Source: Thoreauomyces humboldtii
Lineage: Eukaryota; Chytridiomycota; Chytridiomycetes; Spizellomycetales; Powellomycetaceae
Length of the DNA stretch: 13,572 nucleotides
Reading direction: 5' to 3'
Assembly (NCBI GenBank): GCA_027596035.1
Contig: JADGJA010000633.1
Location: 1 to 13,572 of the forward strand
Shown here: one piece after another, positions 1 to 13,572 of the stretch
How the letters are laid out: each line of letters opens with the position of its first letter
Numbering within the stretch: position 1 is the stretch's first letter
The notes under the pieces: generated by a model
Told to the model about the DNA's origin: nothing
The model's input: only the letters and a program-made list of their open reading frames with translations
Database searches by the model: none
Made by a program: the position numbers and the translations under genes

Positions 1-1291
1 TCCCCATGCCCCCCCGAACAGAGCCCTCCCTGCGTGAAGCTCGAATGCTACCTCCGTCTTTGCAACGTCCCATACCTCGACAGAAGAGCCCAGGTCCTGC
101 GAAAGTCTCCCACAAAGACTGCTCCCTACGTCGAGTACAACGGGCGATGCGTCTCGGACACCACCCTGATCGTGGCCTGGCTGGAGGAACGAGGCATCTC
201 AAAGGGGCTCGACGGGAACTTGACCGGCGAGGAGATGGCGACGTCCGAGGCTTTCAGATACCTGATCGAGGAGGGAATCTACTGGCATGTGAGTTGGACG
301 AAGGTCTACGGGCCGAGAAAGCGGGGCCAGTTCTTATGCGCGCGAAGCGCGGATCTCCCGTGAGGCGCCCACGAAAGCGGGGCCAGTTCTTACCCGCGCG
401 GAGCGCGGCACTCCCCTCTCGGTCCGCGTAGCGGACCGTTCGTTGCATGCGTTCCTCTTACCCGCGCGAAGCGCGGATCTCCCGTGAGGCGCCCACGAAA
501 GCGGGGCCAGTTCTTACCCGCGCGAAGCGCGACACTCCCCTCGCGATCCGCGAATTCCTCCTCCTCTTCCGCGCGAAGCGGAACCCAAAATGTCCGCAAA
601 GCGGACCGGCGAAGCCATGCAAGGCACTCCCCACAAAAGCGAGGACCCCTTGCATGCCGCGCAAAGCAAAGCACGGCATCTCGACTTTCCTCACGAATCT
701 CACTTCTCACTTTTCACTTCCACCTCCATCTCAACCTCCACCGTCAAGACATTGTACAGCAGATGGGAGAACCAAGCCAACTGGAGTCGATTCGCGTCGC
801 TGGCGTTCGCGGGACTCCCTAGCATCCTGCGCTTTCCCGTCTCCACGCTCGTGCGAAGGCTCGTCCGAAAGCAGCTGGCAGGGCAAAAGACGGGGCGACA
901 CTCCTTCGAGACGGTGCTGCGCTTGTCCGATCGTGCGTTCGATGGTGGGTCTCCCCCTTTCCCCAACCCGATCTTCCATACACACCGTCCGCTGATGGTA
1001 CGCTTCCACCATCTCCAGCCCTGTCGGTACAGCTCGGATCGAAGAGGTATCTCTTCAGTGACGAGAAACCTTCATCGATCGATGCGAGCGCTTTCGCTCA
1101 TCTGTCCAACATCCTGTACGTGGCCCTCCCTGACGACCGATTGCGCGAGTTACTGGTAGGCATCACCGAACGTCCTTCCGTCCTTCATTCCACGAACCAC
1201 TTACACACCCCTCTCCCAGTCCACCAAGGCCAACCTCGTCAAGTACTGCGAGAGGATGCGACGTGACGTGTTTCCAGAGCGAGTCGTCTAA
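1..1291 (+). CDS. Fax/metaxin-like glutathione S-transferase-fold protein, 5' partial
   Basis: The reading frame is open from base 1, so the true start lies upstream. Exons by splice signals: 1-288, 749-944, 1019-1155, 1220-1291 (stop TAA 1289-1291); phases agree throughout, giving 230 visible residues. The N-terminal part is a thioredoxin fold: SPPCVKLECYLR, then VPY, then APYVEYNG with the cis-Pro position, then VSDTTLI. The C-terminal helical part contains YSRWENQANW, GLPSILR, GRHSFE, YLFSDEKPSSIDA and NLVKYCERM. This order is that of the failed-axon-connections/metaxin GST-like family (GST_N_4 and GST_C_6 type domains), which is present in many fungi. The biochemical role of fungal members is poorly defined; glutathione use is not shown by the sequence. 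The acceptor of intron 1 (CAAG at 745-748) is weak but gives the expected join YWH-TLYSRW. Intron 1 (289-748, 460 nt) is far longer than introns 2 and 3 (74 and 64 nt) because of a hairpin-rich repeat cluster. Family assignment is fairly sure; exact function is not. Confidence 0.85.
311..680. repeat. GC-rich mini-hairpin cluster with 124-bp direct repeat, inside an intron
   Basis: This stretch lies wholly inside intron 1 of the GST-like gene. At least seven short perfect inverted repeats can be read, most with 3-nt loops: 339-351, 394-408 (6-bp stem), 420-438 (8-bp stem, loop GTA), 462-476 (6-bp stem, loop GAA), 519-531, 567-583 (6-bp stem, 5-nt loop) and 592-606 (6-bp stem, loop AAA). Longer-loop pairs follow: CATGCAAGG 616-624 with its complement 648-656, and ATGCCG 654-659 with 674-679. 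A direct repeat of about 86 bp, 332-417 against 456-541, has only a few mismatches. The core AAAGCGGGGCCAGTTCTTA recurs at 318, 374 and 498. No coding sense is evident. I do not recognise it as a named element; stem-with-tiny-loop GC elements are best known from organellar genomes. Confidence 0.85.
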
Positions 1292-2747: not shown

Positions 2748-5700
2748 ATGGGTCCAAATCTGTACGTCGTCAGTGCGAGGAAGCCAGACTCTGTGTCGCA
2801 TGCCGTCAAAGCCAGCTTTACAGGTCCAGACGACATCAACGTCATCGTCAGGTAACTTTCCCTCTGGCAAGCAAGCGTTCCGCTCTCCCTCTGAACCTGA
2901 ACTAAAAGGCATGGCCGCCCTTGGACAGCAAAACAACCCATCTAGAGGTCTTTATCCTGGAGCCCACCGGAGCAGATGACGGAGAGCAGTACCTACGACT
3001 GGTGCTAGACGCACCCATATACGACCGAATCACCACCCTGGGGAAATGCCGCCTTCCGGTACGAAGACCCAAAGAGAGGAGCCATACGGGCTGTGCTCCC
3101 GCTCCGCTGCAGATTCAGGAAACAAAGCTGAAAGTATGGACGGTGGCGAATCTTTGTCCTGATAGGGGAAGACGCAAGATTCCATCATCATATCCACGGA
3201 ACGACACAAGTTCCTCATCGTATCCTACAATTCGCGGACGCACCACCTCGAGACGGAGATCGTGGACGACATACGGGAGCCCGCGGCTCGCGTCTCAAAC
3301 TTCGGCTACATGGGGATGGTTCACGCGGACGGAAACCTGGTGGGAATCCACAGCTACGAGGGGATCCTTAAGGTCGTGGACCTGGGTCGACAGTTCAAGG
3401 CGGGGAAGAATGCGAAAAAGTCCACCAGAGAACCGAGACGGTCTTTGACGGCCGTTACTTTGAGGTCGGTTCCACGGAACGGGGGACCCATCCCGACTTG
3501 TTTCTCACTCGCTGGGGCTGGATGTTTTTTTTCCCGTCAGATTGGAGGAGAGATCTGTCATCGCCATGCAGTTCATGGAATCGGACGGATCCGGGGACCA
3601 GAAACCGATGCTGGCCTTGGTGTATCAGGATCACAAGAAGCAGCAGAACCTGAAGGTGTATGAGTTGGACCTCGTGGCACGGGAACTTTCCGAGAACAAG
3701 GACATCGTCCTGCAGAACTTGGACTTGCCGAAGCTTCTGATCCCAATCCCACGCGTCAGTGGTATGTGGGATCTTGAATGAAGAAGCGTTGGCATCTTCA
3801 AACAAAGTGGAGCTGTTGACAGATGGTGTGTCTGGTCTGCCCAGGTGGCGGTGTCGTCGTCATCTGCGAGCAAGTCATCCACGCATCGACCTACAAAGGA
3901 TCTGCAAGCACGCCCATCAAGCCAACTATCATGAAGAGGTGCGTTGCAAACAGATTTTGCTTCCATGTATGACCGTATGTGCTAAAGTTGCTTGCTTCTA
4001 GTTGGACGCGGCTGGACCCAGAAGGCACACGTTATCTCTTGGGTGATTACGAGGGCAAAGTCTACGTGCTGTACCTAGAATTCAAGAACGATGCCCTAGT
4101 GAACCTTACCGTCCAGAACATGGGTCAGGTAACGGAGCCTTTGGATATCCCAGGGTCCAAAAGCACAAGTTCCGAAATCTGACCTCTCCCTTTGAAATTT
4201 CCTATAGGCATCCCAATCCACGGCCCTTGCTTACCTTGACTCTGGCTACCTTTATGTCGGATCCCACTATGGAGATTCCCAACTCGTCCATCTTCGGCTG
4301 AAGCACAACGAGAATTACCAATATCTCGACGTTGTCATGGAATTCGAAAATCTGGCGCCCATAACGGATTTCTGCATCGTGGACATTGAAAAGCAGGGCC
4401 AGGTTCGTGGATATGCCGTCTCGAGTTTTCCTTGCAAACCATAATTCCGTAGGGGGACTGATCGTAATTTGAAAAAAATAGGGTCAAGTGGTCGCATGTT
4501 GCGGAGCCGGAAACGACGGGTCCCTCCGAGTGATTCGCAACGGTATAGGTATCGAGGTCCTCGGCACACTGAACGATGTTCCCGACATCAACGGAATATG
4601 GTCGTTGCGGTCGTCTTTCGCGGCAAAGTACGGGGCAAGCGGGGTTGCAGAGAGCTTCCACGGCATGGAAAAGCGTCAGTGAAGCTGATCGTAATTGCTC
4701 TTTCTGCCTCGCAGGACGGACGACACGCTCGTCCTATCGTTCATGACGGAGACGAAGCTGCAAGGGAAGGATCTGGACGGTAGCTTGGGGCCCATAGATC
4801 CTGCTGATGCCGGAGGTTTCATCCTGGATCAGCCAACTCTTGCCTGTGCGACCGTCCCGTTCGACCGAATCGTTCAGGTAACGTTACCGGTCCGGCTCTT
4901 CCTCAGGCCTGAGTCGGTAAGTTAAGAGAAGAATGAATCTAGGTCACGGCAACGACGGTTATGCTCTTGAATTCGAGGACACGAGGAATCGTCAAGACGT
5001 GGAACATCAGCGACCCCCAGTCCCAGATTCAACATGCTTCCATCAACCCGTCCCAGCTCGTTCTTGCAATTACCGGCGGTCGGATGAAGTACTTTGAGCT
5101 GACCGAACATGACGGTTTGATCGAGAAGAGGTAAACGTCGGCTTGTCGAACGACGGGGTTCTCCTTGGACCAGCTTATTCACACCATGCATCTCTTGGGT
5201 AAACAAGCGAGATTACCTTAGAGCACGAGGTCTCGTGTCTTGACATCAGTCCGTTCCAATCGAAGTCCAGCGACAGTTCGTCGTTCTGTCTCGTGGGACT
5301 GTGGACGGATATGAGCATACGACTTTTGGAACTCCCTTCGCTTCGGGAGATGGACAAGCAGGTTCTCGATGAAGGTTCTGAACCCTGTTAAGCTGCTATG
5401 TCAGTTTAGGAGCTTAATTGATTTACCAATCTAACTCTTCATAGAGATGATACCGAGATCCGTGCTGATGGTTACATTGGGCGGGATCGACTTTGCGATG
5501 GCCGCGCTAGGTGGGTGACAGCCCCGAGCTACTGGGACGACAACGAGCGGATTTTCACGCAGCATCCATCGCATCTTAGGTGATGGGCACCTGTTCACTT
5601 TCCACTGCGACCTCCATACCGGGAAGTTTGGAGAGCGGCAGAACGCATCCTTGGGAAGTCACGCGGTCGGACTTCGAACATTTCAATCCGGCGGTGAAAT

Positions 5701-7494
5701 GTGCGTGTTCGCTGCATCGGACCGACCCACGGTCCTCCATATGAGCAACTCAAAATTGAGGTTCTCTCCGGTCAATCTAAAGGTGCGTGCGCGCGGGAGC
5801 TCAATGGTCTTGTGCATAAGCTTGATCGCGCACATCTCGGTTCGGTTCCATAGGACGTAGCGTACATGTGTCCCTTCAACTACGATGGCGATGCACTCGC
5901 CCTCGTCTCTGATGGATCCTTAAAGATCGGAACCGTCGAGACAATCCAGAAGCTCCACATCAAGCGTATCCCTATCGGCGAGACGGTCCGACGTATCGCT
6001 CACCAGGAGAGGACCGGAACGTTCGCTCTTCTCACCATCAGACTCCTTCAAGACAAGAAGACACACGAGGAGGAGGAGCGCGGGATCGTCAAGTTGCTGG
6101 ACAACCAGACATATGAAGGTACGAACCTGCAAAAGGAACTTAAACCAGTCACTATGTCTCATCCCGCTTCCGGTTTCCCAAAAAAAAAGTACTGGACGAG
6201 GCCGTTCTGGGACCGTTCGAGATGGTTCAGTCCCTCCAGTCGGTAATGTTCGACGGGGCCGACAAAGAGTACTACTGCGTCGGAACGGCCATCGTCGTTC
6301 CTCACGAGTTAGAACCTGAGAAGGGAAGGATACTGGTGTTCGAAATCACGGTGGATCGAAAGCTGAGGTTGATGTACGAGCACGCCGCTTCGGGATGCCC
6401 TTACGTACTAAATACCGTTAGAGGAAGATTGGTGGCCGGGATCAACAGCAAGGTAAAACCAAGGAAGAAGCAGGGTGAGGGACGTCCATTGCTCATTGAA
6501 CCTTTCTGATACCAGGTACATATCTTCCGATGGGAGAAACAAGAAGGCAGCCAAACCTTTGCCTTGATCGAAACCGCCACTCACCGAGGCAACATCATTG
6601 TCCTCAATCTCGCCGTCCGAGGCGACTTCATCGTGATCGGTGACCTCGAGAAATCCGTCTCGGTCCTCACCTACGATCCCGAGACAGAATCCCTCTCCCT
6701 CGTCGCACGAGACCCCGACTCGAAATGGATGAGGGCCCTGGAGGCCCTCGACGACGACCTCTACATCGGAGCGGAACACAACCAATACCTCTTCGCGTTG
6801 AAGCGACAGAGCGACGCACCGAACGATGACGATAGGAGGAGGTTGATGCCCTTTGGTTTTTATCATCTTGGGGAGGGCGTCAATCAATTGCGACTCGGTG
6901 AGTTTGTCTGCAACGCGTCCGGGTGATCGTGTCAGCTGCGCTGGTTTCTGACCTTTTCCGTTTCCTCTTTTCTTCTGGGGGGATCTCAACGTAGGCTCAT
7001 TCAGCTCGAGTGTAGCCAGTCAGGACGACGCAAAGGCGAAAGCCGTGCTGGTGTACTGCACTGTCAGCGGCGGACTCGGCATCGTCGCCACCGTCGACGA
7101 TGCGACATTCACGATCCTGTCGCACGTGCAGGACAACATGAGGACGATCGTCAAGGGTGTAGGAGAATTGAGACATGATTCGTAAGTATCATTGTGTGTT
7201 TCTTGGCATCCACATTGAAGATCAGCTTGCTCAGTTTTCACGGACAGGTGGCGAGATGTAATGGACACGAGGGGACGACTGGTACCCTCCAAAGGGTTCC
7301 TGGACGGCGATCTCATCGAACAGTACCTCGATCTATCCAAGGAGCAGAAGGACGCCGTGGTGAGAGGCAGCAAGTCCGGAGGAGATGCCTCCCAGCAGCA
7401 AAATCACCAGCACGACAGCAAGCGGATGAAGAAGCTCAACGTGACGGTCGAGGACCTCACTCGTATCATCGAGGAGATGTCGAGGTTGCATTAG
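2748..7494 (+). CDS. DDB1: DNA damage-binding protein 1 homologue (CRL4 ubiquitin-ligase adaptor)
   Basis: DDB1 is the three-propeller adaptor that links CUL4-RING ubiquitin ligases to substrate receptors, acting in nucleotide-excision repair, replication control and chromatin regulation. Eighteen exons with consistent phases: 2748-2851, 2929-3058, 3166-3464, 3541-3761, 3845-3938, 4002-4128, 4208-4402, 4482-4627, 4715-4877, 4943-5130, 5208-5374, 5445-5510, 5580-5782, 5854-6118, 6190-6452, 6516-6897, 6995-7181, 7248-7494. The product is about 1148 residues, close to the family's 1140. Family signatures run in order: LYVVSARKP at the N-terminus, GKTQDSIIISTERHKFLI, LDPEGTRYLLGD, VGSHYGDSQLVHL, LRVIRNGIGI, TDDTLVLSF, LVGLWTDMSIRLLELPS, ASDRPTVLHMSNSKL, MCPFN, TIQKLHIKRIPIGE, GTAIVVP, GDFIVIGDLEKSV, and the C-terminal GFLDGDLIEQYLDLS with VEDLTRIIEEMSRLH. 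The N-terminal MMS1_N-type region and the C-terminal CPSF_A-type region (from about residue 790) are both present. Introns are 63-107 nt. The gene looks intact and functional. Confidence 0.96.
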
Positions 7495-7919: not shown

Positions 7920-10598
7920 TCACCGATGCCCATCCTTCAAGCCGTGGTCCTTGCGCGACCGTTTCGACTGACGCGACCGAAGTTGTCTGGGATCGCCGGA
8001 CAGGTCGTAGGACACGGCTGTGGGAGGGCAGGGGAGCGTATCGGAGGGCGACGATGGTATTTTGGACTTTGGCGTCGTCGCGCGTTGGTAGCGTGGTGGT
8101 GAATTCGATTCAACAACCGCGGGCGTCTCACTAGGCGGGTATGTGGGAACGACCAGTGAATTTGGTGGGGCGCGAATTTGGATGAAAGAGGAAAGAAGCT
8201 TCTCCAGATTGTCGATGTTCCGCTGTAAGCTCTTGGATGGCTGTATCTGTCTTGACTCGTAAGGTTGTTGGGGCTGCAGACGCTCCAACGTTGGCTTCGA
8301 GAGAGTCACGCCAGCGTCGGCCGCTTGCGACTGGTATGCGAGGGCCAGATCCCGATCGCATCGGTCGAGACATTTGCCGATGATAATCGAGTAGGAGTAG
8401 TCGTCCATCGTCATACCGTTGGCCAGCTCCTTGTCAAAGAGTTCCCGAGTAGAGAATCCAACATGATCGTCACGAGCGACGGCACGCAGGAGCTGATTGA
8501 ACGACCATGTGGTCGGAACGATGCCAGCCGATCGCATCTCAGCATAGAGGTGTCTACACCCTCGTATGTCTCTCGCGTGACCTCGAGCAGTCACCAACGG
8601 ATCATACATCTCCGCGTCCGGTCTCAGACCGCTCGCACGGAGTTCCTCCAAGACCGAGTAGGCCAGGTCCCAGTTCGGTGGCATCTGATGTAAAATGCCT
8701 TCCAGATACGCTCGGAAGACCCGGATGTCAGGAATCACGGGCGGAGACGTTCGCGTTCCTTGTTTCATCCGTGCCCACAGCTCGGTCAAGACGGACGCGT
8801 CGTACTTGAAGAGATACAGCAGCTGGGTGTAAGCTGCCGCATCGGCTGGAACGCCGCGTTGCTGCAGTTGCAGAAACACCTGCAGGCCTTGTTGTGGGTC
8901 GTTTGCTCGGGCGAAGGCCGCCAAAAACATGCCCATGACATAGGAGTCGGCCTTGATGGAGGGAGGTGGCTTCTCGTCGGTGCCCATGTTATCCACAATA
9001 TTCATGGCCGCGTCAAAGTCGCCTCGCTTCAGATAGCCATCGAGCAGCTTCGTCATGCAGAACTTGTCAGGCTGCATGCCGGCGTCGATCATTTGACGGA
9101 GAACGTCTTCTGCAAGAGCGTCCTCATTCTGAACCAGAAGTCCTGCGGCGACAGCACCGTAAGTTGAGGCGTCTGGGGGGATTCCGCGTTTTCCCATCAG
9201 TTGCAGGATAGCTAAAGCTTCTTTCGGTTGCGGCTGCCGAGCAAAAAAGTCAATCAAGACAGAGAAAAACGTACGATCGAGCTCGACGCCCGACTCGTTG
9301 ATGATCCAGTCAATGAGCCGTGAAGCTGTCTCGCCACAGTCCGAGGACTTTCCAAGGATCTGCCGTAGCAGGATGGTGAGTGTCACAACGTTCGGTGGTG
9401 TCCCGGATGCCAAGATCTGAGATATCAATGCGTCGAAGTCCGCCGCGACCTTATCCGACGCACTGAGCGCAGTATTGAGCATCCTGAAATCCGGCTTGAG
9501 TCCCAGATCACGCATCCTTTCCAGCACGAACCGGGCGAACACGTTATCTCGTAACCGAGACGCTATGATCAAGAACTGCATGTAACTTTGAGGTGAAAGC
9601 GGAATCGCCGATGTGCATAACGCGTCGAATAAGCGCTCCGCGCCGAAGATGTCTCTTGCCGCTGCGTGGAGCCCCAATAACTTCTTGATGAAGCGCGAGG
9701 TTAGGTTCCGCGTATCTGCGATGATCCCATCCGTCACCCACGCCATTTCCGCGGGGTCACGAGCCTGAGATGCGGCTTGATAAAGCAAGAACCAGGTATG
9801 CGCATTTCGTCGCCTAGTACCCCGCTCCTCCATCCTTTCAATGAGCTGCATTGCCCGATACAGTTGTCGCCCCGGCGACTCTAGGTACAGACTCAGCAGA
9901 TGGTTCCACTCCCGGGCCCCAGGTTTCCGCTTGTTGGTATCAAAGAGGTATCGAATCAATCGATGTATGCGCCGCGCTGCCCTGTTTGGTTCCAGGGATC
10001 GTCGCATGAGCTCGATAACCTTGTGAATATCATTCCACGTGAGCCTTTCCAACACACTACACGCGTTCGACCGAATGTTCTGCTCCTCGCCGTGAGTCAA
10101 AAGATCCCACACAGCGTTCGGATCTGCGCTAGATTCCGAATAAAGCCTGCTGCGGATCTCCTCGATCCGTGCGTTCAGACGTGTAAAGTCATCCTGCGCA
10201 CGGTTGCTCCGTTCGCTCCACGGATTTACACACATCTTCCAATTTCCCCTGGACATCGTATGTTGTTGGTCTGTCCTCGTGCTGTAAGACAGGATGGTGC
10301 ACCAGATGGCAAAGATAGGGATGTTCCGTGCTGGATCCGTCTCATGGTGGTCGCGGGCCCTGTGGCGCGCACGATGCCTTCGTTCGCGTTCTATGCCGCT
10401 GTCCGCAGCGCACGACCAGAGCTGACGCCATTTCACGCGCTGTCCTCCTAGTATGGCAGCGCATCCGCTTCGCGTGAGGTAAGGGTATCGACGACGCAGG
10501 GTCGGACAGAGGGAGAAGCTGCTGTTGGAAGCGAATATGTTGTTGACGTTCTCGAACGTCGCTAGTGGTAGCAGGCGATGAGCCGCAGTGAAGCTCAT
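7920..10598 (-). CDS. Pentatricopeptide repeat (PPR) protein, probably mitochondrial
   Basis: This is an uninterrupted frame of 892 codons from ATG at 10598-10596 to TGA at 7922-7920. A TTG codon just before this ATG is in frame but is not a likely eukaryotic start. The first 45 residues are rich in Arg, Ser and Phe with few acidic residues and look like a mitochondrial presequence. The middle of the protein holds helical repeats of about 35 residues typical of PPR proteins, for example PPDASTYGAVAAGLLV followed by AEDVLRQMIDAGMQPDKF, then MTKLLDGYLKRGDFDAAM, and later AYSVLEELRASGLRPDAEMY and LYAEMRSAGIVPTTWSFNQL. The last 115 or so residues are a low-complexity Pro/Ser/Gln/Arg tail. PPR proteins bind organellar RNA and act in stability, processing or translation; the RNA target cannot be read from this sequence. 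The stretch from about residue 60 to 125 is His/Arg-rich and poorly repeat-like, so a retained intron or a later start (Met near residue 114) is possible. The gene has no visible intron, unlike its neighbours. Confidence 0.88.
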   Translation of the reverse strand: MSFTAAHRLLPLATFENVNNIFASNSSFSLCPTLRRRYPYLTRSGCAAILGGQRVKWRQLWSCAADSGIERERRHRARHRARDHHETDPARNIPIFAIWCTILSYSTRTDQQHTMSRGNWKMCVNPWSERSNRAQDDFTRLNARIEEIRSRLYSESSADPNAVWDLLTHGEEQNIRSNACSVLERLTWNDIHKVIELMRRSLEPNRAARRIHRLIRYLFDTNKRKPGAREWNHLLSLYLESPGRQLYRAMQLIERMEERGTRRRNAHTWFLLYQAASQARDPAEMAWVTDGIIADTRNLTSRFIKKLLGLHAAARDIFGAERLFDALCTSAIPLSPQSYMQFLIIASRLRDNVFARFVLERMRDLGLKPDFRMLNTALSASDKVAADFDALISQILASGTPPNVVTLTILLRQILGKSSDCGETASRLIDWIINESGVELDRTFFSVLIDFFARQPQPKEALAILQLMGKRGIPPDASTYGAVAAGLLVQNEDALAEDVLRQMIDAGMQPDKFCMTKLLDGYLKRGDFDAAMNIVDNMGTDEKPPPSIKADSYVMGMFLAAFARANDPQQGLQVFLQLQQRGVPADAAAYTQLLYLFKYDASVLTELWARMKQGTRTSPPVIPDIRVFRAYLEGILHQMPPNWDLAYSVLEELRASGLRPDAEMYDPLVTARGHARDIRGCRHLYAEMRSAGIVPTTWSFNQLLRAVARDDHVGFSTRELFDKELANGMTMDDYSYSIIIGKCLDRCDRDLALAYQSQAADAGVTLSKPTLERLQPQQPYESRQIQPSKSLQRNIDNLEKLLSSFIQIRAPPNSLVVPTYPPSETPAVVESNSPPRYQRATTPKSKIPSSPSDTLPCPPTAVSYDLSGDPRQLRSRQSKRSRKDHGLKDGHR

Positions 10599-11284
10599 CA
10601 ATCAGGAAACACGGACGGACTGAAAGAGGTCCCGAATGGTGTCCGTGATCGCAGCAGGGGGGGCTGAAAGGGAAGGGAGGAGAAGATGGCCGAGCTAATC
10701 TGTCGTCCGAGACATCGGGCGGGAACGAGCGAGAGCACGGGTTGAAGTATGTATGCAGGGTCGAGGACTCGATGGAGATGTGAAGACGATCTTTGAGAAG
10801 GAATGCGTCAGCAGGTTCCAAGGAAGCTGAAGGAGCACCCGCGATTCTCCGCTGGGAAATCGCGCGACGACCACGAAACGAGAGGGAGCTTACACCGTGC
10901 GGCAAGGACTAAATCGCTGGATAAATATGTGACTAGAAACGGACTCTTCAAGATGATAGTAGATATCGAGGAAGATTCGACCAAGGGTCTTCCCTCTGGT
11001 AGTGGGATCGTGTTTGGGGTGGTGGGTGGGAGAATGCTAAGATTGCGACCCTCAGGACTTAGGAGGATGGGTACGGTAGTTTTGCGCCTGTGAGAAAACG
11101 GGTTCTCCCTGCTGTCAAACAAAAAGAAGCACGGGCAACTACGGGCAGCCAGGCAGCAGGCAGCCCCTTTCGCCGTGACTTCTGATCAAGACTATCTCCG
11201 TCGAGGCAGACCACACCTAAAGGTCTTACCTTGGACACTGCAACCGTTCAGAAAGAACTATTCAGGCAACCACTCGATGTTTAG
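10599..11284. other. Unassigned stretch between the PPR gene and the receiver-RasGEF gene
   Basis: This region lies upstream of both flanking genes, which diverge from it, so promoters and leaders for both are expected. A 96-codon plus-strand frame (10803-11093) and minus-strand frames (10342-10905, 10808-11122) are open but show no family motif. A small GGCAG-rich repeat occurs near 11142-11166. Further 5' exons of the downstream gene could hide in the right half. Confidence 0.5.
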
Positions 11285-11886: not shown

Positions 11887-13572
11887 ATGCCTTGGAGGAA
11901 ACCTGCAGCTGAAAAGGAGGTTGAGATATTGGGAGCCGACTACAGGAACTTTCGGGTCGCTATCGTTGTGAGTGGCGTCGTGAATGCGTTGGGTCTTGAG
12001 CGTCCTGTGCCCTCTTGTCTGATCTGGGCGGGTTTGGATAGGATGATAATGCTGTGGTCAAGAAGATCCTGACGGTAAAAAAATTAGGCCGGACGGGCCT
12101 GAAGGTTTCTCCTAGACGATGTCTCTGAAGCTTTCTGTTGCGTTCAACAGAAATCCTTGAAGCAACATTTCCAAGTCAACGTCACGACAGGTGACTTTTA
12201 CTCGTGACCACGGCGGCTTTTTGATCTCGGCCCAGACTGCCCAGACTGATGGAAGTGTGGATTTTGATGTGATGCAGATGACGATTTCGAGAACGGTCTT
12301 CAGCTGCTTAAAGCGCTTCAGATCCGAAGGTGAGACTCGAAGATCGAGGGTTGGGAGACTTGAAATCTTACTAAATCTTTTGCATCGCAGATACGATCTC
12401 ATCATGATGGACATAGGTATCTTAAACCACCAACGGGTGGTTTTCGGGTAAAAGGCTCCATGATGGCTAACGTTCGACGAGTTTCCTCTCCAAGACATGC
12501 CCATCATGAGCGGTACAGCCGCCACGCTACTCATCCGAGGCAAACGCGTCGCGTCCCAAGCGGCCGAACTCCTCGCACCGCCCCCCACCGTGGAAGGAGC
12601 GGAACCCTCGCGTCGTTGGGGTCGATCGCCTAGCATCTCTCGATCCTCCCGCGTGGCACCCATGACGACGTCCGACTCTGAATCGTTCGACACGATCGCG
12701 GAACGGATCATCGGCGAGAATCGACTTGTCCCTATCGTCGCCATCACGAGCAACACGGGTCCCGAACACAGGGAGGCTTACCTCGCCTCCGGCATGAACG
12801 ACGTGTTGGGAAAACCTGTGACGCCGAGCATGGTGCAGGAGATACTGGGAAAGTACCTCACGATGGTGGAGTTGAGCGCCACGAGAGGGTTGGGCGCGAG
12901 TGTCCTCGTGTCTTCGAAGATCGATCCGGCGGCGCTTGGCACGACGACTCAGTTGAGCGCTGGGACGAGGGAGGAGCTGTTGAAGGCTTTGCTGCATCTG
13001 AAGTCAGGTACGAGCTTTGTCTTTTCTTTTTTTTTTTGGTGTGGGGGGATGGGAGGGGGGATACAGTTGGGAGTTCATGGACTTTGAGCCACTCATGTTC
13101 GATTTTTTTGCTGTGACGAACAGCGGGACCTGGATATCTGAGTGTCTTCCTCCTGACGTTTCGGTCCTTCATGATGCCCGAGGAACTCCTGGCGTGGTTG
13201 GACGATAAGTTCCATGGACAAACCGACACGACTTCCTCCGCCTCTGATCTATACACCGCCACGAGAAACATGGTGTCGAAAGAGCAAGGGTGAGATTCTT
13301 GCGGTGTGGCGGGAAGAGTCCGCATAGATAGCCTTCTGACGTTGTTAGGGCGTCTTTTTCTTTCATTGGTTTATCAGGGTGGTGACCGTATTGAACTCGT
13401 GGATCGCGGATCAGTGGCAAGATTTCGCGTCAAATCCCAAACTAAGAACTGGACTCATGCAGCTCATCGCGTCCATGAGGGTTCACAACTGTCAGGAGGA
13501 AGCGGTGCAGTTGAAACAGGCTGTCGAGAAGACGGTTAGTCTCAATCTCGTGCATGTCGCGCGCGGGGGGGG
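11887..13572 (+). CDS. Receiver domain-RasGEF N-terminal (REM) domain fusion protein, 3' partial
   Basis: Exons by splice signals, all phases consistent: 11887-11967, 12042-12074, 12151-12190, 12278-12329, 12391-12416, 12495-13007, 13124-13289, 13378-13534; the gene then continues past a GTTAGT donor and the window edge. Numbering from ATG 11887 (context AACCATGCC), 356 residues are visible. Residues about 23-205 form a response-regulator receiver: VAIVDDNAVVKKILT with the acidic pair D28/D29, YDLIMMDIDMPIMSG with phosphoacceptor D76, VPIVAITSN with switch T162, and LGKPVTP with conserved K184. All key residues are present, so it should be phosphorylatable by a histidine phosphotransfer protein. 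Residues about 98-152 are a Ser/Pro/Arg-rich insertion before the fourth strand. From about residue 232 a RasGEF_N/REM domain follows: AGTREELLKALL, GYLSVFLLTFRSFMMPEELL, then VVTVLNSWIADQWQDF. REM domains stabilise Cdc25-type Ras exchange domains, so a catalytic RasGEF domain is expected downstream. The first two exons of the receiver and the REM part share no assembly gap. An earlier start is possible. Confidence 0.85.

Follow-up and report, generated by a model that had tools for sequence, protein, structure and literature searches.

A receiver–REM–RasGEF fusion in the chytrid Thoreauomyces humboldtii: a candidate link between phosphorelay and Ras-family signalling

Introduction

Two-component phosphorelays and Ras GTPases are normally treated as separate eukaryotic systems that meet, if ever, far downstream. 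The known RasGEFs of the Cdc25, SOS and Epac kinds are regulated by domains other than a receiver. In Dictyostelium, the receiver of RegA is phosphorylated through RdeA and the attached phosphodiesterase is activated (PMC11988041), while in Myxococcus RomR/RomX serves as a GEF and polar recruitment factor for MglA (PMC7332107). Among fungal response regulators, Ssk1 has its alpha3 and beta4 separated by an insert rich in Pro and Ser, a loop that is proposed to bind a partner; it has Phe or Tyr at position K-3 and is active upon losing its phosphate (PMC8510515).

The window analysed here is a stretch of 13,572 bases, the entire contig C589 of a T. humboldtii assembly of 20.67 Mb in 823 contigs. 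The species is a chytrid of the family Powellomycetaceae in the order Spizellomycetales (Chytridiomycota). An earlier note on this DNA had reported a receiver joined to a Ras exchange-factor REM domain and knew of no characterised protein of that architecture. This is consistent with a search of the open-access literature, in which neither such a protein nor a description of a receiver–RasGEF architecture was found. The main text of a source on fungal response regulators likewise contains no words beginning with Ras or GEF (PMC8510515).

Results

The front of the gene occupies the last 1.7 kb of the window, where eight exons splice in a single frame into 356 residues with all seven introns being GT..AG (Table 1). 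The open frame of the ATG starts one codon upstream, just past a stop. C589 terminates within the gene, just past the exon 8 donor, and its final 273 bases have a single occurrence in the assembly. The start and end of this front part and the borders of exon 6 had been given exactly to the base in the earlier note, and both its on-phase joining of exons and its reading of exon 6 as receiver C-terminal half, linker and REM start in one uninterrupted frame are borne out by the spliced model.

Table 1. Coordinates of the receiver–REM–RasGEF gene, its neighbours and related genes (window positions unless a contig is named)
Feature	Position	Strand	Content	Following intron compared with C31
GST_N_4 / Tom37-like gene fragment	1-363	+	left contig end
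Direct repeat, first copy	332-428
Direct repeat, second copy	456-552
DDB1/RSE1/CPSF-A family gene, part	3166-6926	+
Pentatricopeptide-repeat frame	7920-10601	-
Exon 1	11887-11967	+	start Met and receiver first strand (ends FRVAIV)	same column and phase
Exon 2	12042-12074	+	receiver DD pair (D28, D29)	common
Exon 3	12151-12190	+	receiver	common
Exon 4	12278-12329	+	receiver	absent from C31
Exon 5	12391-12416	+	receiver phosphoacceptor D76 (YDLIMMDI)	common
Exon 6	12495-13007	+	insert, receiver C-terminal half (T162, K184), linker, REM start; one open frame	common
Basic/serine stretch SRRWGRSPSISRSSR	12608-12652	+	within receiver insert
Exon 7	13124-13289	+	REM (RasGEF_N)	six columns off, same phase
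Exon 8	13378-13534	+	REM end; then donor GTTAGT, then G run at contig end
RasGEF exons	C214: 91-417, 493-585, 663-786, 909-1159		preceded by intron-like 90 bases ending TTAG
Sister receiver–REM–RasGEF gene	C31:3600-7400
RBD-REM-RasGEF gene	C43:1-4200
Standalone receiver gene	C1:133600-136349		gene from about 650 in
Ypd1-like HPt gene	C269:10923-11258
Ypd1-like HPt gene	C313:84-269

In Pfam scans of the 356 residues, Response_reg (PF00072) is matched with E = 2.4e-16 (60.3 bits against a curated cut-off of 30.2) in two stretches with an insert between them, and RasGEF_N/REM with E = 3.3e-16 (59.8 bits, cut-off 28.3) at residues 231-328, covering positions 2-101 of the 106 in the profile; no further family appeared up to E = 1. 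The receiver active site is complete (D28, D29, D76, T162 and K184). The complete receiver and the REM domain, both of which had been read from the letters alone, are thus recovered by profile search. At the level of sequence, the receiver–REM fusion is confirmed as real and lies far beyond chance.

Elsewhere in the window, beta-propeller and CPSF_A matches in 5 of 7 ORFs scanned mark a portion of a DDB1/RSE1/CPSF-A family gene that is rich in introns, and an uninterrupted frame of 893 codons encodes a pentatricopeptide-repeat protein (PPR_2, 6.4e-32). Near the left end, a GC-rich 97-nt unit is present as two direct copies, 94% alike and 124 nt apart, and overlaps the end of the GST-like frame.

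An assembly profile search for RasGEF gave 23 exon-level matches on 13 contigs. Contig C214 opens with RasGEF exons on a strand fitting a join to C589; together they encode 264 residues, in which Pfam finds a RasGEF domain at full length (1.2e-54, profile 2-181 of 181). The join is in phase, giving a predicted protein of 620 residues, and the bridging intron falls at alignment column 500 in phase 0, as in a sister gene on C31. Identity of the joined protein to P0001, P0002, P0004 and P0005 is 54-60% across 98-100% of the query, and coverage is 97-100% in alignments to Geranomyces, Thoreauomyces and Rhizophlyctis proteins. The gene very likely continues outside the window at C214:91-1159, an inferred join supported by the C31 intron at the identical column and phase and by database proteins that run through the junction. 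With that join, the catalytic RasGEF domain which the earlier note expected downstream lies on C214, and all three domains are found in full-length relatives.

Almost the entire joined REM-GEF part can be aligned to cell division control protein 25 (7nzz, 7.3e-28) and to SOS2 (2.3e-21). For the catalytic domain, the best PDB match is Rap GEF 4 (3cf6, 4.4e-36), which we take to be Epac2, and the next distinct one is 2ije, a guanine nucleotide-releasing protein that is presumably RasGRF1; with a Rap exchange factor first and 2ije next, the ranking does not discriminate between Ras and Rap specificity. None of the 28 PDB matches listed for the joined REM-GEF part has a receiver, judged by their names. 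HSF DNA-binding, protein kinase and cAMP phosphodiesterase domains were absent from the Pfam scans of the window protein and C214, and no families beyond receiver, REM and RasGEF were found in the scans of these two and of the aligned relatives.

The same genome holds a second, complete receiver–REM–RasGEF gene on C31, a contig of 39,331 bases. This gene is P0002, record HKX48_001148: its spliced coding sequence translates to the record exactly, and exact 8-mers from the C31 exons cover 644 of the 645 residues. There are 11 intron sites in the window gene with C214 and 10 in the C31 gene, of which nine coincide in column and phase. The two non-coinciding introns of the window and C214 are one that is displaced by six columns in the same phase and one that is extra (after R68). 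Comparison of the two copies gives a pN of 0.14 for the GEF domain and of 0.17 and 0.19 for the two halves of the receiver, against 0.56 for the insert, 0.59 for the linker and 0.40 for REM; pN was kept as the measure and dN/dS is unusable, with synonymous sites saturated or dS > 1.3.

A protein search with the joined sequence (about 8,000 word-sharing candidates scored) gave 137 matches with E no higher than 1e-3. Among the best 120, at least nine have both receiver and RasGEF domains: P0001, P0004, P0005 and P0006 of Geranomyces variabilis, P0003 of G. michiganensis, P0002 of T. humboldtii, P0007 and P0008 of Rhizophlyctis rosea, and P0009 of Fimicolochytrium jonesii. REM is precomputed in eight of these nine, P0006 being without it, and all three families are matched in every one of the nine aligned rows, among them the joined window protein (E up to 0.001). 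The sister gene and relatives from four genera have the domains in the order receiver, REM, RasGEF. These four chytrid genera span two orders, Spizellomycetales and Rhizophlyctidales. No further fused protein was found with an alignment of the fused set among the 15 matches listed at E up to 1e-10 (about 8,000 candidates scored). Likewise, none of Spizellomyces or Powellomyces is among the matches listed in either protein search, so the fused protein may be dispensable. The database names of the fused proteins, where shown, are automatic: hypothetical protein, ras GEF domain-containing, response regulatory domain-containing, or Rap GEF 6.

Conservation within the fused proteins is uneven. D76 and K184 are present in 9 of 9 rows; T162 is kept in eight, with Ser taking its place in F. 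jonesii. Two of the nine models start too late to include the DD pair, and the other seven have both of its residues. Identity to P0001 is 55/76 and 40/55 in the two receiver halves (95/131 for the core) and 173/229 in the GEF domain; it is 61/128 in REM, 17/53 in the insert and 10/24 in the linker. The receiver–REM linker is less similar still to P0007 (5/25), P0008 (3/25) and P0009 (2/24). Judged by the similar identities to P0001 and the similar pN between the Thoreauomyces copies, the receiver is constrained about as tightly as the catalytic GEF domain. Residue K-3 is Val or Ile in all fused rows and T+1 varies; as bacterial receivers typically have an aromatic K-3, the classical receiver switch may differ here.

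The insert between receiver alpha3 and beta4 is rich in Pro, Ser and Arg; the 63-residue stretch parsed in the window has 16% Ser and 10% Pro. A pattern R-x-x-S-[IV]-[SNG] occurs in the inserts of 10 of 10 fused rows examined (RAASIS, RASSIS and RAASVN; RSPSIS in the window), a pattern that was written after the motif was noticed and in related rows, 4 of the 10 being from G. variabilis. Shuffling gave rates of 2.6-6% per fused insert, which for related rows and a post hoc pattern is no significance test. The motif resembles what we take to be a site for basophilic, PKA-type kinases, and its use as a kinase site is put forward as a lead.

The closest receivers to the fused ones, by sequence and by tree, are those of a standalone family named here after SPPG_00279 of Spizellomyces, which have neither REM nor RasGEF. 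Members are listed from Spizellomyces, Phlyctochytrium, Thoreauomyces (on C1), Powellomyces, Borealophlyctis, Rhizophlyctis, Gaertneriomyces and Fimicolochytrium; most of these genera belong to Spizellomycetales or Rhizophlyctidales, with Phlyctochytrium arcticum in Chytridiales according to NCBI. The family shares with the fused proteins the alpha3-beta4 insert and the basic RxxS motif, the latter being placed near the C-terminus of a long tail rather than in the insert. An RxxS-like motif is present in the tails of 8 of 12 standalone rows (11 genes, that on C1 counted twice), six of which read RASS[IVF][SNT]; of the four rows without a match, P0129 is a partial record and P0134 is unparsed. 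The C1 gene itself is of the standalone kind: its receiver is followed by a long tail, rich in Ser and Pro, that ends MIRRASSFSKRH. Many tails in its unnamed chytrid family have an RRASS-like motif.

In a receiver tree of 23 rows (6 fused, 6 standalone and 11 other receivers), the fused receivers form one clade (98/96), the standalone six group by themselves (83/78), and the two sets together are separated from the 11 others at 97/93, with long branches among the outside receivers and a very long one for P0146, which was badly cut. Four of the ten standalone proteins tried were left out (P0128, P0130, P0132 and P0134, for which the cutting pattern failed) and P0133 is also absent, as are two of seven other database proteins and the fused P0003, P0005, P0006 and P0008; six of the 33 receiver matches of T. 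humboldtii were included.

A tree of REM and GEF was built from 20 rows and midpoint-rooted for drawing only, with the outside row P0017 flagged as long. The ten fused rows lie on one side of a branch with support of 98/100, Rhizophlyctis being the first among them to branch as drawn with this root. The T. humboldtii copies pair with each other (96/92), suggesting a duplication of the fused gene within the Thoreauomyces lineage. Taken together, the simplest account of the origin would be a single fusion event, in which a duplicated standalone-family receiver became linked to a REM-RasGEF gene prior to the split of Spizellomycetales and Rhizophlyctidales.

Four of the seven nearest non-fused GEF rows (P0011, P0013, P0015 and P0121) contain Ras-binding domains. 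These RBD-REM-RasGEF proteins are among the nearest exchange-factor relatives of the fused proteins, and their Ras-binding domains are N-terminal, where the fused proteins have the receiver. A gene of this kind, resembling P0011, lies on C43 in the T. humboldtii genome alongside the receiver fusions. A simple or allelic swap of an N-terminal Ras-binding domain for a receiver was rejected, as T. humboldtii has both kinds (C43 and C31/C589).

Components of a phosphorelay are present in the genome. C269 and C313 each have a Ypd1-like HPt gene with HFLKGSSAALGL; the two are very similar, both carry LGHFLKGSSAALGL, and they are duplicated like the receiver–RasGEF gene. Exon-level matches number 33 for Response_reg and 31 for HATPase_c, a family that marks other ATPases too. 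C368 encodes an Ssk1-like receiver (5kbx, 7.2e-28), and C803 a Skn7 candidate with HSF and receiver matches on one strand about 1.2 kb apart. The window receiver matches Ssk1 weakly (5kbx, 9.4e-4), and a profile of five fused receivers reaches 2.4e-8 against 5kbx, ranking below many kinase receivers. An assignment of the window gene as the Ssk1 ortholog, prompted by its Pro/Ser-rich alpha3-beta4 insert, was rejected on the grounds of K-3 being Val/Ile and C368 being a better Ssk1.

Discussion

The phosphotransfer residues that are kept, the full-length GEF domain, and the HPt and histidine-kinase-type exons of the genome support a putative direct link from histidine kinase to a Ras-family GTPase as the best reading of the parts. 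The earlier note had proposed such a link for osmotic, oxidative or light-type input, among which the sequence does not discriminate. The favoured form of this reading, held with somewhat better than even confidence, is that a Ypd1-type phosphorelay acting on Asp76 would relieve inhibition of Ras/Rap exchange by this predicted 620-residue response regulator. Ypd1 would transfer phosphate to Asp76 of the receiver, which when unphosphorylated would dock intramolecularly on REM/RasGEF and block exchange. Phosphorylation would release the block, and Ras- or Rap-GTP would rise, the substrate being a Ras or Rap/Rsr1-type GTPase. Receiver control of the GEF output is proposed by analogy with RegA, in which a phosphorelay receiver already works as the activator of a C-terminal enzyme (PMC11988041). 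The reverse sign is possible, since Ssk1 acts once its phosphate is lost (PMC8510515). The poor conservation of the receiver–REM linker does not favour one rigid coupling.

A fuller version, in which the one-step His-Asp phosphorelay switch of a Ras-family GTPase is combined with PKA-type feedback at the RxxS[IV]S site of the insert, is offered tentatively and at somewhat less than even confidence. The conserved basic motif in the alpha3-beta4 loop would in that case add a PKA-type input to that of the phosphorelay and close a feedback loop.

The receiver could instead, once phosphorylated, steer the place or partners of the protein through dimerisation or through membrane or pole targeting, with the intrinsic rate of the GEF unchanged, as for RomR in Myxococcus. 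RomR/RomX is both a GEF and a polar recruitment factor (PMC7332107), and the variable linker and long Pro/Ser-rich insert would suit such a role, the similar loop of Ssk1 being one that is proposed to bind a partner (PMC8510515). However, no targeting partner is identifiable from the sequence and the Pfam scans gave no lipid-binding domain, and we regard this explanation as unlikely, while giving it real weight.

A role of the receiver as a side branch or phosphate sink in a HOG-type relay, in which it would compete with Ssk1 and Skn7 for Ypd1 phosphate next to a constitutive GEF, is improbable. The Ssk1-like receiver of C368 and the Skn7 candidate of C803 would share Ypd1 with it; yet covalent attachment to REM-RasGEF would be superfluous for a sink, and that attachment is found in four genera and in both Thoreauomyces copies. 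Slightly more improbable again is a receiver that no longer accepts phosphate and is a structural or docking module only. An aliphatic K-3 and a variable T+1 would agree with this, and in around 27% of the fungal response regulators that are unclassified, the sequence is degenerate, shows deletions or lacks conserved residues (PMC8510515). The catalytic residues are nevertheless kept, and conservation of the core is close to that of the GEF domain. Finally, that receiver and REM come from two neighbouring genes or a chimeric contig has a negligible probability and is already refuted by the sequences as to architecture: although the contig breaks inside the gene and the C214 join is inferred, exon 6 spans the receiver–REM border in one frame, the C31 sister gene is complete on one contig, and at least eight database proteins of four genera (that of C31 included) have all three domains.

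If the fuller version with its one-step switch and PKA-type feedback is true, the protein would be a first direct phosphorelay-to-Ras wire in a eukaryote. A single chain holding both systems, in two chytrid orders, would make their meeting one testable step: whether aspartate phosphate sets Ras-GTP.

With respect to known systems, the joined protein has REM and a CDC25-type catalytic domain like the Cdc25, SOS and Epac RasGEFs. Ssk1, Skn7 and Rim15 are fungal response regulators in which the receiver active site is complete as in the window protein, and Ssk1 also resembles the window receiver in its Pro/Ser-rich alpha3-beta4 insert. Their outputs differ, however, from that of the window protein, in which the HSF domain of Skn7 and the kinase domain of Rim15 are absent. 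RegA, like the window protein, has a receiver joined to a C-terminal signalling enzyme; it is fed by a hybrid kinase and the HPt protein RdeA, and ties a phosphorelay to a core eukaryotic second-messenger system, but its output is a cAMP phosphodiesterase instead of a Ras exchange factor (PMC11988041). RomR/RomX places a response-regulator protein within the exchange factor of a small Ras-like GTPase, as is proposed here, yet it is a bacterial two-protein complex for which no RasGEF or REM domain is named in the available portion of the source (PMC7332107), in contrast to the single receiver–REM–RasGEF chain of the chytrids.
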